This document shows, piece after piece, positions 4,280-55,707 of a stretch of 64,000 nt of DNA (its first letter is position 1; every line of letters starts with the position of its first letter). The stretch is taken from assembly GCA_902618795.1 (NCBI GenBank), contig CACNCF010000002.1, forward strand, positions 62,001 to 126,000, read 5' to 3'. Below the pieces are notes generated by a model. That model made no database searches. It saw nothing but the letters and a program-made list of their open reading frames with translations, and was not told the origin of the DNA. Position numbers and translations under genes: made by a program. Origin of the DNA: an uncultured Prochlorococcus sp. (GTDB taxonomy: Bacteria; Cyanobacteriota; Cyanobacteriia; PCC-6307; Cyanobiaceae).

Positions 4280-7200
4280 ATGGATATTAATCAAATTAAA
4301 TTAGATAATAAGTTTCAATTAGTAGAAGCAAGTGCAGGAACTGGTAAAAGTTTTACTTTGGCTCACATAGTTTTAAGAAATGTTTTGGAGAAAAAAGTTA
4401 AACCAGATGAGATACTCTTGCTAAGTTTTACAAAAAATACTTGTTCTGAATTAAGAGATAAAATACTCTCGAGATTTTATAATTTAAAATTATATTTGCA
4501 AAGTCATAATGAAAGTAAGATAGATAATACTCTTAAGGATTGGTATCTAAATTTTAAGGATAAAGATAAATCTAAGGAAAAAATAATTTACGAAATTGAT
4601 AATTTTATAAATCAATTCTATAAGTTAAAAGTAACTACGTTCCATGCTTTTTGTAATAATATTATTGATGAATATAGTATTGAAATAGGTTTAACTCAAG
4701 ATCCATATATAGAGAATAATATTGATAATTTGTATAAAGATGTAATAGATAATTTGTGGATTGATGATTTTCTTAATCTTAATCAAGAGCTTATTTCAGC
4801 AGTCAACAAAAAAAAAATAAGTTCTAGATTTGGAAGTAGTATCAATAAGTCATTTTTTGTAGAAATATTAAAAAATATTGATCAAGAAAATATCTGTAAA
4901 TTTCAAATAAATAATAAATATAAGATTATTGATTTAAATAATTATTTTAATGAATTTTTTTATTTAAATTGGAACGATTTTTGTTTTGAATGGAATAAAA
5001 AAGGTAAGGAATTATTTTTACAACTCATTGAGTTAGGAAAATTAATTAAGGAGAGTGGTGGAAAAAGTCAAATATATGCTGCAAAACCAAGAAATAACAA
5101 GTTTGATCAAATAAATTGTTGGATTGAAGAGATTAACAAAAGTCTTAATTCTAAAAATGTTATTGATTTTATATATGATATTTCTAAGGATGATCTTTTA
5201 TCTAAATATTTTTATATTGAAAATATTTCTAAAGAAATTAAAAAATATAATCTAAGATTAGATTTTACTAAATTTAATTTATTACAAGATAAAATTTATA
5301 AAATAAAAGAAGGTTTCTTTACTGAATTTGTACGAATATTTACCCAATTAGCTTATATAAAATTAATTGAATTAAAGAAAAGTTTGTCTATTTTTAACTT
5401 CAATGATCTTATAAAGACTGTAGAAAATACATTTCTAGATTCGGAAATTAGTAATAGTAGTACTCTATCTAAAATTCAAAAAAGATTTAAATGTGTTTTA
5501 GTGGATGAGTTCCAAGATACAGATATTATCCAGTGGAATTTAATAAAAAAGTTCTTTTATACAAAAAATCATTTTTTACTTTGCGTAGGTGATCCAAAAC
5601 AAGCGATTTACAAATTTAGAGGTGGAGATATTGAAACTTACTTAGATGCAAGATCTAATGCAAACGAAGTTTTTAGTCTTACAGATAACTATAGATCCTC
5701 AAAAAAGTTAATTGATGTTCTTAATAAACTTTATAAGAATGGACTTGAAAAATCAAAAATAAACTATAGTAGATTAACCTCAAGAATTAATGAAAATATT
5801 AATCCGGAATTTAAATTTAAGGATGTATTTGAAATTGTAGAATTTTCAAAAAAAGAGACTGATATAGAAGATCTTGTAACTCATTACATAGTTAACTTTA
5901 TTTTAAATAATAAAGAAATTGATATTAATAAAATTGCGATTCTCACATTAAATAATTCGCAATGCTTAGATTTTAAAAAAAAATTAAATCAGTTTAACCT
6001 CCCATGCAAAATTCAAAACAAACAAAATATTTTTGATACAGAAGCAAGTTCTCTACTATTTTTATTCATTGAATGTTTATTAAATCCGAGGTCTTTAAAA
6101 AATATAAATTTGCTTGCTACTTCAAAGTTTATAGAAATAAAATTAGAAGATTTACTTGATCATGGAATTAGTAATAATTTAGAAATTTTAATGAATAAAT
6201 GCATTACTTGGTCCCAAGAACTAAGAGAAAAAGGGTTTTTAAACATTGTTAATGAACTACTTATAAATTACAAGTCATCCTCGATTATTCAAGATTTGGA
6301 TTTAAATTCAAATTTATTTCAACTTTCAGAAATTTTTGAAATAGAATTAATAAATAATGATTTTGATCTCAATATAGTCTTCAACTGGTATAAAAATCAG
6401 TTAGATCATATTTTAAGAATTTCTACTGGAGAAGATTTTTTTACGAAAGATTATAATCTTCAAAATGGAATAAATCTATCTACCATTCATAGTAGTAAGG
6501 GTCTTGAATTTGAAATAGTCCTATGTCCATATCTCTCAATTATTTCAAATAAGTCAAATAAAATTAAAGGACCTCTTTGGAAATCAAGTATTGATAGAAA
6601 TATATACGTTAATATTTCTAATAATTACGCGAAGGTTGAAAAATATAAATTAATAGAAGAAGAAGATTTATTTAAAGAGAGTGAGAGGTTAATTTATGTA
6701 GCACTTACAAGGAGCAAATATAAACTTATTGTTTTTAATGATTTAGGCGATACAAATAATATTTTAAATAATGATTTACTTAATAATTTGGAAAATATTA
6801 ATATTTATAAGTCTACTTTTGAAGTCAGAATAGAAAAAGAGAAAATAAAAAAAATTTTTTCTAAGTTCCAAACCAACCGATTGAATAATAATCTTTGGAA
6901 AATCGATAACGTTAATAAAAAAATATCTAATGTATTTAATTCTGATCAATTTATTTCTTATTCAAGTTATTCTTCTTGGATACGTAAAGATAAAAATCTT
7001 GATGCAGTCATTAATCAATATAAGGATTATGAAGATAATATATCAATTATCAAAGATTCTAATTTTAAGAATTCAAAGACTTATCCTAATTATTTTTCTT
7101 ATCCAAATCCCTTAAGTCAATTTCCAAGAGGAACTATTGCTGGGACTTGCCTGCACAAAATAATAGAAAGATTTGAATTTAGAAACGATAATAATCAAGA

Positions 7201-7906
7201 ATTAATTGATTTAATTATTGAGGAATTGAACTTTCATCAAATCGATGCTTCTTTAGCTTTTAAAGTAAAAGATGCGATTTTAAGAATCATAAATATATCT
7301 TTAGGCAGAGAATTACAAAATAAGAAACTAGTTGATATTCCAAATGAATACTTAATTAAGGAACTTAAATATGATTTAACCCTATCTTATGAAGGTAGAA
7401 ATATTAATTCTAACGATATATCAAATTGCTTTTTTTTAGATCAGGAATATGAATTTGGTGAAGAATATGCAAATAAAATAAATGATCTTCAAATTATGAA
7501 TAAAGGCTTTCATTCAGGATGTATTGATTGTGTTTTCCCTGTAGGAAATAAATTAGAAGATAGTAAATGGTGGGTAATTGATTGGAAAAGTAATTTGATT
7601 TCTGGTAGTAATAATAGTGATTGTTTACCAAGAAACTATAACTATGAAAACATGAGAAATGAAATGATTAAACATCATTATCCATTGCAATCACATCTTT
7701 ATTTATTAGCATTGCATAGATTATTAAAGTGGCGACTTAAAAATTATCAACCACATAAACATCTAGGAGGATATATTTATTTGTTTTTAAAGGGATTGCC
7801 AGATTTTGAATTATTTGAAAAATCAAAGTCTGAAGATATATCTCCAGGTATTTTTATTGGTAAAGCACCTTTAAAAAGAATTAATTATTTAGATAACCTT
7901 TTTTAG
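4280..7906 (+). CDS. recB: Exodeoxyribonuclease V beta subunit RecB
   Basis: UvrD-like Walker A EASAGTGKSFTL, Walker B LVDEFQDTD, STIHSSKGLEF, and C-terminal nuclease motif GCIDCVF...WWVIDWKSN. Confidence 0.93.
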   Translation: MDINQIKLDNKFQLVEASAGTGKSFTLAHIVLRNVLEKKVKPDEILLLSFTKNTCSELRDKILSRFYNLKLYLQSHNESKIDNTLKDWYLNFKDKDKSKEKIIYEIDNFINQFYKLKVTTFHAFCNNIIDEYSIEIGLTQDPYIENNIDNLYKDVIDNLWIDDFLNLNQELISAVNKKKISSRFGSSINKSFFVEILKNIDQENICKFQINNKYKIIDLNNYFNEFFYLNWNDFCFEWNKKGKELFLQLIELGKLIKESGGKSQIYAAKPRNNKFDQINCWIEEINKSLNSKNVIDFIYDISKDDLLSKYFYIENISKEIKKYNLRLDFTKFNLLQDKIYKIKEGFFTEFVRIFTQLAYIKLIELKKSLSIFNFNDLIKTVENTFLDSEISNSSTLSKIQKRFKCVLVDEFQDTDIIQWNLIKKFFYTKNHFLLCVGDPKQAIYKFRGGDIETYLDARSNANEVFSLTDNYRSSKKLIDVLNKLYKNGLEKSKINYSRLTSRINENINPEFKFKDVFEIVEFSKKETDIEDLVTHYIVNFILNNKEIDINKIAILTLNNSQCLDFKKKLNQFNLPCKIQNKQNIFDTEASSLLFLFIECLLNPRSLKNINLLATSKFIEIKLEDLLDHGISNNLEILMNKCITWSQELREKGFLNIVNELLINYKSSSIIQDLDLNSNLFQLSEIFEIELINNDFDLNIVFNWYKNQLDHILRISTGEDFFTKDYNLQNGINLSTIHSSKGLEFEIVLCPYLSIISNKSNKIKGPLWKSSIDRNIYVNISNNYAKVEKYKLIEEEDLFKESERLIYVALTRSKYKLIVFNDLGDTNNILNNDLLNNLENINIYKSTFEVRIEKEKIKKIFSKFQTNRLNNNLWKIDNVNKKISNVFNSDQFISYSSYSSWIRKDKNLDAVINQYKDYEDNISIIKDSNFKNSKTYPNYFSYPNPLSQFPRGTIAGTCLHKIIERFEFRNDNNQELIDLIIEELNFHQIDASLAFKVKDAILRIINISLGRELQNKKLVDIPNEYLIKELKYDLTLSYEGRNINSNDISNCFFLDQEYEFGEEYANKINDLQIMNKGFHSGCIDCVFPVGNKLEDSKWWVIDWKSNLISGSNNSDCLPRNYNYENMRNEMIKHHYPLQSHLYLLALHRLLKWRLKNYQPHKHLGGYIYLFLKGLPDFELFEKSKSEDISPGIFIGKAPLKRINYLDNLF

Positions 7907-7907
7907 A

Positions 7908-9611
7908 ATGATTAAAACTACTACAGATATTGAAAAGTTCCAATACGATCATATATTTAATTTAATCTTAGGTATTTTCAAATTTAGTGAAAAAAAATAT
8001 GGAAATTTCGTAAAAGATGTAATAAGAATTTTATTAGAGTTTGAAAAAAATGGTGAAACTATTATTGATGTTGATAATAGTTTAATAAGCTTTGAATTAT
8101 TAGAAGATGGCTGGCCCAATAAACATATAGATGTCCTAGAAAATATAGGTTTGATTGGTTCCCTTCATTCTCCTTTCATATTAGTAAATAGAAAATTATC
8201 CTTATCAAAGTGGTCAAAAAAGATAGAAAGAGTTATTAATTCATTTCTAAAAAAAATAGATACCGATAATTTAATGAACTCAATAATTTATAAAGATGAT
8301 AATAAAATTGACCAAATTAAAAATATATTTAAATATTCAAACTTAGTTTTCCTTCAAGGAGGACCAGGTACGGGTAAAACCACTTTAATAATAAAGTTAA
8401 TACTAGAACTACTTCAAATTGATAACTTTTTAAATATTGGGTTGTCTGCTCCAACTGGTAAAGCTACAGCTCGTTTAAAAGAAGCTCTTAATGATAAAAA
8501 AAATATTTCCTTTAGCAAATTTCTAGACCAAATAGAATTTCAAACTTTACATAGATGGATTTTAAATTCTCAAAATAAATCTCTTAAGTTGAAATTTAAA
8601 CTAAAAGAGCTTGATATTTTCATAATTGATGAAATGTCAATGGTTAATATTGATTTGATTGAATCAGTTTTAAATTTACTAGCAAAGGACTGTAAAATTA
8701 TTTTAGTTGGAGATAAAAATCAATTGTCTCCAGTAAATAACTGTTCTATATGGAATTATTTGTTTGAATATTCCGATAATAGTTCTATTAAATCTTGTGT
8801 AGTAAATTTAGAAAAAACTTATAGAAATATTGGAGATATAGCATTAATTAGTAGTTTAATTTTTAATAATGATTTTTCTTTACTTAATAAAAAGATAAAA
8901 GAATTAGAAAAAGATAATAATTCAAAAGAAATTACTATTTCAAAGAGTAGAGAAAAAGATATTCCAAAAGATCTATTATTTTCGATTACAAGTCATCTAA
9001 AACAGTTAAATATTTCAACTTCAAATTTAAGTAAAAAAAAATATATATTTGATGAGAGTATTGATAATTTATTGCTTAATGAAAAAGATTTAGTAGATAA
9101 GATATTTCTGGATTTGCAAAGTTACTTGATTTTATGCGAAAAAAATTCCGGAATATGGAGTGTTGAATATTTGAATGAAATTGTTTTTGGTCAAAAAAAA
9201 CCCTATGACCTTAAAACTCTTAAAGAGGGTGTTCCGATCATGTGTACAAAAAATAATAATGAACTTGGATTGTCAAATGGTGATATCGGAGTACTTATAG
9301 GTTTAAAAAATAAAAGAAAATATCTTTTTAGAAAATTTAATGATAATAACGAAGAAATTGTCGCATTAATTGATCCATCTAATTTAGAAAATGTTGTACC
9401 AGCAATAGCCATTACTATTCATAAATCTCAAGGAAGTGAATCTGAAAAAGTAAACATTTTGTGGTCCAAAAATTATAGAAGAAATCAATATGCTTTAAAA
9501 GAAAAAAAAGATAATCAAAATATCTTTTGCGGAGATAATTTTGAAAGAAGGTTATTTTATACTGCTGTTACAAGAGCGAAAAAATCATTAAATATATATT
9601 ATTTAAATTAA
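7908..9611 (+). CDS. recD: Exodeoxyribonuclease V alpha subunit RecD
   Basis: GGPGTGKTT, IIDEMSMVN, GDKNQLSPV, AITIHKSQGSE, YTAVTRAKK helicase motifs; directly follows recB. Confidence 0.92.
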   Translation: MIKTTTDIEKFQYDHIFNLILGIFKFSEKKYGNFVKDVIRILLEFEKNGETIIDVDNSLISFELLEDGWPNKHIDVLENIGLIGSLHSPFILVNRKLSLSKWSKKIERVINSFLKKIDTDNLMNSIIYKDDNKIDQIKNIFKYSNLVFLQGGPGTGKTTLIIKLILELLQIDNFLNIGLSAPTGKATARLKEALNDKKNISFSKFLDQIEFQTLHRWILNSQNKSLKLKFKLKELDIFIIDEMSMVNIDLIESVLNLLAKDCKIILVGDKNQLSPVNNCSIWNYLFEYSDNSSIKSCVVNLEKTYRNIGDIALISSLIFNNDFSLLNKKIKELEKDNNSKEITISKSREKDIPKDLLFSITSHLKQLNISTSNLSKKKYIFDESIDNLLLNEKDLVDKIFLDLQSYLILCEKNSGIWSVEYLNEIVFGQKKPYDLKTLKEGVPIMCTKNNNELGLSNGDIGVLIGLKNKRKYLFRKFNDNNEEIVALIDPSNLENVVPAIAITIHKSQGSESEKVNILWSKNYRRNQYALKEKKDNQNIFCGDNFERRLFYTAVTRAKKSLNIYYLN

Positions 9612-9652
9612 ATTTTTTTTTTGAGAAATTAGTAATATCTTAACCCCAAGAT

Positions 9653-9745
9653 GTTAGATTAATACTTCGGCTCTGTAAGGCTAATCAACAATTTAAGTCA
9701 ATTAAGATATTTGTTGAATGCCTAATCAGAAGATTATTAGGCATT
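9653..9745 (+). promoter_or_regulatory. Candidate structured 5' leader of the DEAD-box helicase gene
   Basis: 10-bp perfect stem AATGCCTAAT (9717-9726)/ATTAGGCATT (9736-9745) ending 4 nt before ATG 9750; upstream CAACAA (9686-9691)/TTGTTG (9711-9716) and GTTaGATTA/TAATCAAC pairings. Confidence 0.5.
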
Positions 9746-9749
9746 TAAA

Positions 9750-11531
9750 ATGGCTTTAAAAAAAGATAGTAACTCTCTTGGTAGTGGCCAGGAAAAGTCT
9801 AAGAATGAAGATTCTTCTTTACTAGAGTTCAAGAACTTAGATAACAAAAAAGAAATTGAATCTCAACAATTGGAAGTCTCGAAAGGAGATGATAATGAGA
9901 ATGGATTTCTCGATTTTGGGTTTAATCAATCGATCTTAAACTCGTTAATTAATAAAGGATATAAAAATCCAACTCCCATCCAAAAAGCTGCAATTCCCGA
10001 ACTTATGTTAGGCAGGGATTTACTAGGCCAAGCACAAACAGGAACAGGAAAGACTGCAGCTTTTGCATTACCATTAATAGAAAAACTTACAGGTAATAAA
10101 GAATTAAATGCCAAGGTTTTAGTTATGACTCCTACAAGAGAATTAGCAACTCAAGTGGCAGAATCTTTTAAAAGTTATAGTTCTGAATCTAGTAATTTTA
10201 AGACGGTTGCAATATATGGAGGTACTGACTATCGAAATCAAATTTCCGCATTAAAAAGAAAAGTTGATGTAGTAGTTGGGACCCCAGGCCGAATAATGGA
10301 TCATATAAGACAGGGGACTTTTAAAATTAAAGATATAAATTGTCTTGTTTTAGATGAGGCAGATGAAATGTTAAATATGGGTTTTCTTGAAGATATCGAA
10401 TGGATAATAGATCAACTACCGGAAAATAAACAGATGGTATTGTTTTCAGCAACAATGCCTAGTGAGATAAGAAATATAGCAAAAAAATATCTAAATGATC
10501 CCGCCGAAATATTAATCAAAAGCGTCAAAAAAGAAACTCAATTAATTTCGCAAAAATTTCTATATGTACAAAGGCATCATAAGTTAGATGCTTTAAAAAG
10601 AATACTAGAACTTAATAACGAGGGAGTAATTATTTTTGTTAGGACAAAACTACTTACTACTTCAATAGCTGAAGCTTTAGAGAATTCAGGTCATACTGTG
10701 GCAGTACTTAATGGAGATATACCTCAAAACCAAAGAGAAAATACTGTAGATAGATTGAAAAAAGGATTTATTAATATCCTTGTGGCAACTGATGTCGCAG
10801 CTAGAGGATTAGATGTTGAGAGGATAAAACTTGTTGTTAATTACGATTTTCCTTTTGACAAGGAAACATATACTCATAGAATTGGAAGGACTGGAAGGGC
10901 AGGCAGATCAGGAGAAGCAATTTTATTTGTTAATCAAAGAGAAAAACATTTTCTAAGAAATTTAGAAAACTCAACAAGAACCAAGATTGAAGAAATTAAT
11001 ATACCAAGCAATAAAATAATAAATGAAAAAAGGATGGAGAAACTTATAGATAATGTTAATGAGAGTTCTTTAGCTAAAGATGAAAATGAAGAAAATAAAG
11101 CTTTGATTATTGATGTACTAGATAATTTAAGAGAAAAATACTCTATGGATGACTCAAATATTGCAATGGCGGCGATTAATTTAGTAATAGGTAATAAATC
11201 ATTTTTTGTTAATGACGATGATTCTTGGATTAATAAACAAAATAATACTGATCGAAATAGATCAAATAGAAATAGTAATAATCGTATGAGAAATTCAAAT
11301 AGAAGAAATAATTATCAAAATGATTCTTTTGAAACCTACAAATTTAACTTTGGTAAATTTGATGGAGTTAGAATTGCAAATATTATATCCTCAATCTGTA
11401 ATTCAACTAACATAAATGGTAGATCCATAGGTAAGATACAGATTTTTAATGATTACAGTTTGGTAGATTTACCCAGAGATCTGCATAGAGAAACTAAAAA
11501 TAAATTAAAAAAAATTAAAGTCAGAAACTAG
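9750..11531 (+). CDS. deaD: ATP-dependent DEAD-box RNA helicase (DeaD/CsdA type)
   Basis: AQTGTGKT, PTRELA, DEAD, SAT, ARGLD, HRIGRTGRAG motifs; C-terminal DbpA-like RNA-binding domain. Confidence 0.95.
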   Translation: MALKKDSNSLGSGQEKSKNEDSSLLEFKNLDNKKEIESQQLEVSKGDDNENGFLDFGFNQSILNSLINKGYKNPTPIQKAAIPELMLGRDLLGQAQTGTGKTAAFALPLIEKLTGNKELNAKVLVMTPTRELATQVAESFKSYSSESSNFKTVAIYGGTDYRNQISALKRKVDVVVGTPGRIMDHIRQGTFKIKDINCLVLDEADEMLNMGFLEDIEWIIDQLPENKQMVLFSATMPSEIRNIAKKYLNDPAEILIKSVKKETQLISQKFLYVQRHHKLDALKRILELNNEGVIIFVRTKLLTTSIAEALENSGHTVAVLNGDIPQNQRENTVDRLKKGFINILVATDVAARGLDVERIKLVVNYDFPFDKETYTHRIGRTGRAGRSGEAILFVNQREKHFLRNLENSTRTKIEEINIPSNKIINEKRMEKLIDNVNESSLAKDENEENKALIIDVLDNLREKYSMDDSNIAMAAINLVIGNKSFFVNDDDSWINKQNNTDRNRSNRNSNNRMRNSNRRNNYQNDSFETYKFNFGKFDGVRIANIISSICNSTNINGRSIGKIQIFNDYSLVDLPRDLHRETKNKLKKIKVRN

Positions 11532-11540
11532 TGATAGAGA

Positions 11541-11834
11541 ATGAAAGCTAGCAAATATAAATTCTTTATTTTTGTGAATCTGATATTACTATTCAACTCC
11601 TTTAATAGTTATTATTTAGCCCAAACGAAACAAAATTCAATCATAAAATTATTTTGTCTTCAGAGTGTCAAAGAGGAGATGATGAAAGCAGAAATGGTAT
11701 ATAGTGAAGAAATTGCGAATGAAACTTGTGATTGTTACTACGAAGAATTTATGCAAACTGCAAGTCATCAAGATGCAAAAACAAAATGTAAATTAGAAAC
11801 TAAAGAAAATTTAAATCATAATAGAAAAATTTGA
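11541..11834 (+). CDS. Hypothetical small secreted protein
   Basis: 97 aa ORF with N-terminal hydrophobic segment and cysteines (FCLQS..ETCDCYYEEF), fits between flanking co-directional genes. Confidence 0.55.
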   Translation: MKASKYKFFIFVNLILLFNSFNSYYLAQTKQNSIIKLFCLQSVKEEMMKAEMVYSEEIANETCDCYYEEFMQTASHQDAKTKCKLETKENLNHNRKI

Positions 11835-55568: not shown

Positions 55569-55652
55569 TTCACCTAGAGCAAAATTATAAATCCTTAGTG
55601 AATTAAGTATTAATTTGAAAAATTTTCTAATTAGGAGTTATTATTAAATGAT

Positions 55653-55707
55653 GGGGGAAACCCCATACTCCTCACACACTAAATCGCCCGATTAATCGGG
55701 CTTTTTT
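55653..55707 (+). ncRNA. yfr1: Yfr1 small RNA
   Basis: GGGGGAAACCCC 5' hairpin, unpaired ACTCCTCACACACTAAA, then GCCCGATTAATCGGGC-TTTTTT terminator; between guaB and trxA as known for picocyanobacterial Yfr1. Possible -10 TATTAA at about 55642. Confidence 0.95.

Follow-up and report, generated by a model that had tools for sequence, protein, structure and literature searches.

Evidence for a conserved structured leader RNA upstream of csdA-like helicase genes in Prochlorococcus and its relatives

Among regulated helicases, CrhR of Synechocystis PCC 6803 offers the closest described comparison to the locus analysed here: it is a cyanobacterial DEAD-box helicase under post-transcriptional control that responds to the helicase itself, being autoregulated within the rimO-crhR operon (PMC3485376, PMC9655292). 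Our locus may share these properties. However, CrhR belongs to another subfamily, without a DbpA domain (PMC8190605), and is encoded with rimO; moreover, our models of the leader, R1 and R2, gave no convincing match outside the family to which our sequence belongs. In Synechococcus WH7803, a helicase that the authors named CrhR, which may be a different gene, is cold-induced in high-light cells (PMC7393227).

Other systems bear a more formal likeness. The cspA thermosensor of E. coli is likewise an alternative-fold leader of a cold-related RNA chaperone gene, although our leader is nearly temperature-flat in predicted pairing. We know of no sequence relation between cspA mRNA and the helicase leader. 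The CspA protein, moreover, counts its own mRNA among its targets (PMC9947658). The uORFC-6-1 motif of Bacillales covaries and lies upstream of hflX, whose product is an RNA-helicase-active protein (PMC8632094), but it is a uORF candidate in Firmicutes; a uORF in our leader was considered and rejected, as its ATG at 9718 is not kept in other genera. On paper, the leader also resembles a translational riboswitch or attenuator, with one strand common to an early and a late helix and the late helix masking the start, yet it has no terminator, Rfam family, ligand or protein assigned.

Prochlorococcus and marine Synechococcus are the most abundant photosynthetic organisms, and their genetics are difficult. 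CsdA-like helicases are among the DEAD-box enzymes typical of both. We found no account of the control of the csdA-like helicase gene in the literature searched, and full-text searches found no description of its leader.

The helicase gene and the distribution of its leader

The window, a stretch of 64,000 nucleotides from an uncultured Prochlorococcus sp. (contig CACNCF010000002.1), encodes a helicase with DEAD, Helicase_C and C-terminal DbpA RNA-binding domains by Pfam (DbpA E = 3.6e-14). The DbpA domain marks this protein as CsdA-like, and an assignment to CrhR was rejected. The parallel with CrhR drawn in the original prediction therefore holds as analogy only, CrhR being autoregulated but of the other subfamily.

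We searched for the leader with the two models. R1 matched once each in 125 of 201 genomes of the family, and R2 once each in 187 of 251, with two matches in no genome listed. In every genome for which both coordinates were available (129/129), the element immediately preceded the helicase gene and shared its strand. The genes upstream of the element vary by clade; it is therefore with the helicase that the element associates. A CUGCC-GGCCUG..AAGGA..CAGG core was present even in divergent leaders that escaped the model or received a weak score from it.

Beyond the family, a class-wide sample of 291 genomes yielded 35 matches, all within the same family, and a phylum-wide sample yielded a single marginal match outside it (E = 0.05) and none that was convincing. 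The Rfam 15 covariance models gave no match for the leader in the window or, with E values up to 1 allowed, in nine relatives, and no phage copies of it were found at the sensitivity used. The leader RNA thus spans Prochlorococcus, marine Synechococcus and relatives, and is absent from Rfam 15. The same window holds a Yfr1 small RNA (Rfam RF01116, 58 bits) at 55651-55704 (+), which showed no connection with the helicase leader.

Conservation and covariation of the leader

To characterize the element, we assembled the leaders of helicase orthologues both within the window's genus and in about 40 further genera of the family. Leader sequence varies between genera, and the plan is constant: a TGnTAnnnT box is followed by a short spacer that varies, a 5' segment reading CCUUU or GGCUCUG, GGC, a CAAC/GUUG helix (P1a) with a small inner hairpin (P2) and, ahead of the start codon, a GCCUnAU...AUnAGGC hairpin (P3). 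In the window, the leader (~9664-9749) folds into P1 (9679-9691/9711-9722) and P3 (9717-9726/9736-9745). Its relatives carry P2 as an extra hairpin within P1, which the window's genus has lost; the GCCUnAU core of the P3 5' arm is kept across genera.

Table 1. Features of the helicase locus in the window, with the basis of each assignment.
Feature	Position	Strand	Basis or remark
TGTTAGATT, extended -10 promoter-like box (TGnTAnnnT)	9652-9660	+	Invariance and low diversity
GGCUCUG, leader 5' segment	9669-9675	+	Diversity 0.003 in genus; clade-matched complementarity
GGC, 5' strand of putative P1 extension (P1b), partner GCC 9720-9722	9679-9681	+	Conserved, not covarying
CAACAA, P1a 5' strand (helix 2)	9686-9691	+	Covariation
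UUGUUG, P1a 3' strand	9711-9716	+	Covariation
AAUGCCUAAU, P3 5' arm (helix 3)	9717-9726	+	Covariation; GCC 9720-9722 common to P1b
CAGA, in P3 loop, possible pseudoknot strand	9727-9730	+	Clade complementarity favourable, column count not
AUUAGGCAUU, P3 3' arm	9736-9745	+	Contains AGG 9739-9741, 8 nt before AUG
csdA-like DEAD-box RNA helicase ORF	9750-11531	+	593 aa, ATG at 9750

Within the genus, nucleotide diversity was 0.184 in the variable spacer before the box versus 0.009 in the TGTTAGATT box, 0.003 in GGCTCTG and 0.046-0.059 in the remaining element. Third positions of the first helicase codons reached 0.274, well above the leader element. The leader is therefore under strong purifying selection within the genus.

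The original prediction had proposed a switchable leader built from three pairings, and all three are exact at their coordinates: helix 1, GTTaGATTA (9653-9661) with TAATCAAC (9682-9689); helix 2, CAACAA (9686-9691) with TTGTTG (9711-9716); and helix 3, AATGCCTAAT (9717-9726) with ATTAGGCATT (9736-9745). The 190-base RNA from 9611 to 9800 folds at -41.8 kcal/mol (z = -2.39 relative to dinucleotide shuffles), and when the leader was shuffled 1000 times, a perfect stem of at least 10 bp closing a loop of 12 or fewer appeared in 4 cases.

Covariation was assessed in two alignments. A MAFFT alignment built without structure, scored for P1a, P2 and P3, had 85.5% of cells paired (80.5 when shuffled) and a covariation score of 0.160 (0.105 shuffled), with none of 500 shuffles as high. 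We also fitted 75 leaders to a covariance model and compared them with 500 shuffles and slid-partner controls. Pairing was found in 85.3% of cells (77.7 shuffled), two-sided changes in 14 of 18 pairs (8.6 shuffled) and in 81 cells (29.9 shuffled), and 36 further pair types were present (26.1 shuffled); the score was 0.200 (0.115 shuffled), slid partners gave at most 0.058, and no shuffle equalled any of these values (0/500 each). Fitting favours the structure, and kinship among the leaders inflates tests based on shuffling; the slid controls and the unfitted alignment nevertheless concur.

Individual exchanges are consistent with these scores. P2 reads CGGU/ACCG in some leaders versus GCAACU/AGUUGC (L243) or GCGAU/AUCGC (L252) in others, and P1a reads GCAAC/GUUGC versus CACAACC/GGUUGUG (L243) or GGCAG/CUGCC (L255 and similar). 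Compensatory changes beyond chance, a general mark of a structured leader, are thus found here. From these comparisons, we consider it nearly certain that the helicase leader contains a conserved structured RNA element, of which helices 2 and 3 are, on the covariation of both, a real part. Comparison among genomes likewise shows P2 in relatives, the exclusive helicase linkage and the invariant promoter-like box.

Helix 1 did not fare as well. Over 50 aligned leaders, 65% of its cells pair and its covariation was no better than shuffled, and most of its 5' arm (9653-9661) falls in the TGTTAGATT box. The T, G, T, A and T of TGnTAnnnT were invariant in all 50 leaders. These are the positions of the extended -10 element of sigma-70-type promoters. 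Taken alone, such a motif is frequent by chance in this A+T-rich window, and the weight therefore rests on its invariance. Because its bases fall in an invariant box and do not covary, we read helix 1 as promoter sequence: the 5' arm is most likely promoter DNA and probably untranscribed, so that helix 1 is probably not part of the structured RNA. From the position of the box, we infer a transcription start at ~9664-9669.

Competing pairings and a proposed switch

We then asked which pairings exclude one another. Competing helices in the leader are supported, as had been predicted, but the conserved competition is a different one. Helices 2 and 3 overlap only through an optional extension at 9714-9716; their cores can coexist, and the minimum-energy fold contains both. 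Instead, GCC 9720-9722 can pair either with GGC 9679-9681, extending P1, or with GGC 9740-9742 at the base of P3, and the two pairings are exclusive. Among the aligned leaders this GCC exchange, which the original prediction missed, is the best-conserved competition. GGC 9679-9681 and its partner GCC are nearly invariant across leaders and show no covariation, and because of this the P1b pairing is only putative.

Folding predictions are in keeping with an exchange during transcription. For transcripts truncated ahead of the P3 3' arm, the predicted probability of the P1 extension was 0.99 in the window's genus, 0.93 in other genera and 0.83 in GC-rich divergent leaders; in full leaders it was 0.07, 0.40 and 0.35, respectively, and P3 stood at 0.75, 0.48 and 0.43. 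The strengths of P1b and P3 did not track each other across sequences, and no tuned energy balance was seen. In the window's predicted fold, P3 covers AGG 9739-9741, which has an unpaired probability of at most 0.04. In other genera P3 ends 11-18 nt from the start codon; Shine-Dalgarno masking therefore fits the window's genus best, and elsewhere P3 may act on the ribosome standby region. The exchange of P1 for P3 and the masking of AGG are thus computational predictions.

The 5' segment might also pair with the P3 loop, as in the candidate pseudoknot of UCUG 9672-9675 with CAGA 9727-9730. The two regions are complementary within clades (CCUUU/GAAGG; UCUG/CAGA) and less so across clades, and a fixed-column covariation count gave no support, partly as the loop alignment shifts; this pseudoknot is suggestive only. 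Most relatives form an alternative 5' hairpin (CCUUU/AAAGG), a weakly supported candidate that we set aside: in the window's genus one of its positions is disrupted and another pairs weakly. No terminator hairpin with a U run was found in the leader, where P3 is followed by UUUAAAAUGG, and a transcription attenuator was rejected for this reason.

We propose that ~9664-9749 is the 5' leader of the csdA-like helicase mRNA, transcribed from its own extended -10 promoter TGTTAGATT, and that it acts as a conserved cis-regulatory RNA. During transcription, P1 (GGC..CAACAA / UUGUUG..GCC) would form first; as the 3' arm at 9736-9745 emerges, P3 would take GCC 9720-9722 from P1 and close over AGG. The two folds would differ in ribosome access and so set helicase output after transcription has started, with P3 as the presumed OFF state. 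That the leader controls helicase synthesis is very probable from the comparative evidence. We lean slightly toward the account as a whole, comprising its own promoter, a cis-regulatory leader, the P1-to-P3 exchange, AGG masking and translational access.

The leader would accordingly be, we infer, a post-transcriptional switch, and possibly one of helicase feedback. The signal may be the helicase itself, whose RNA-binding domain or strand-exchange activity would speed refolding from P1 to P3; this would constitute negative feedback that relaxes in the cold or when helicase is short. In its full form, a family-wide leader RNA with nascent P1 as the ON state and a helicase that hastens the switch to the P3 OFF state on its own mRNA, this proposal is tentative and rather unlikely. 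Were it true, helicase shortage or cold would slow the exchange and helicase synthesis would rise automatically. It would then be a clean case of a helicase whose own mRNA lets it sense RNA-folding capacity, and would offer a natural substrate on which to measure helicase-driven strand exchange. The leader RNA is compact, has covariation support and lends itself to synthesis and testing in vitro.

Alternative explanations and neighbouring features

One alternative is a static leader, without any switching between P1b and P3. P1, P2 and P3 would then make up a single fixed structure that either binds a protein, the helicase or some other, or keeps RNase E away from the 5' end and the start region. 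In the predicted fold P1a and P3 coexist without conflict, the 5' segment lies near the inferred mRNA 5' end, and RNase E participates in crhR autoregulation in Synechocystis (review PMC10989914). However, leaders in which the alternative 5' hairpin is broken still retain GGC 9679-9681, although a fixed fold of P1a and P3 could do without it; we regard the static leader as rather unlikely. Alternatively, the helicase may merely be the regulated gene, and the leader may sense a metabolite, an ion, a small RNA or another RNA-binding protein. The near-invariant unpaired GGCUCUG and the P3 loop, with their possible pseudoknot, do resemble a binding site. Against this, the element serves a single gene that is always the helicase (129/129), and it has neither an Rfam class nor a candidate ligand; we consider such a signal quite improbable. 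As to mimicry of rRNA for the DbpA domain, local alignments of the leader with the rRNA locus of the same genome scored within the shuffled range, and this candidate was dropped.

The temperature response suggested in the original prediction was not borne out by folding in silico. In a nested model without pseudoknots or kinetics, the predicted probability of P3 was 0.88 at 10 °C and still 0.84 at 37 °C, and that of the P1 extension never exceeded 0.02, which argues against a simple thermometer. A protein-free thermometer of the cspA or fourU type would suit the finding that a helicase of Synechococcus WH7803 is induced by cold (PMC7393227), but a start-hiding stem would tighten as temperature falls and so act in the wrong direction for such induction, and we regard this explanation as highly improbable. 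It is barely credible that there is no RNA feature at all, only inverted repeats of a DNA operator or chance pairing in an A+T-rich spacer. The -10-like box and GGCTCTG are indeed the most conserved parts, and the window is A+T-rich. Yet two-sided changes and G-U pairs occur at many positions, the element persists in relatives of higher G+C with ~50% helicase identity, and a P3-type stem appeared in just 4 of 1000 shuffles. Of the original prediction, then, a structured leader is borne out by conservation, covariation and exclusive helicase linkage; helix 1, the thermometer and the proposed competition are not.

The leader lies directly 3' of an ORF at 7908-9611 (+) for an apparently RecD-like helicase protein (567 aa), which adjoins another at 4280-7906 (+), apparently of RecB type (UvrD family, 1208 aa). 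Directly 3' of the helicase is a 97-aa ORF (11541-11834, +) without a Pfam match. In some Synechococcus-type genomes (L239, L243 and similar), the upstream ORF has a C-terminus that differs from that of the RecD-like protein and reads into the TGnTAnnnT box, so that the gene end and the promoter-like sequence overlap.
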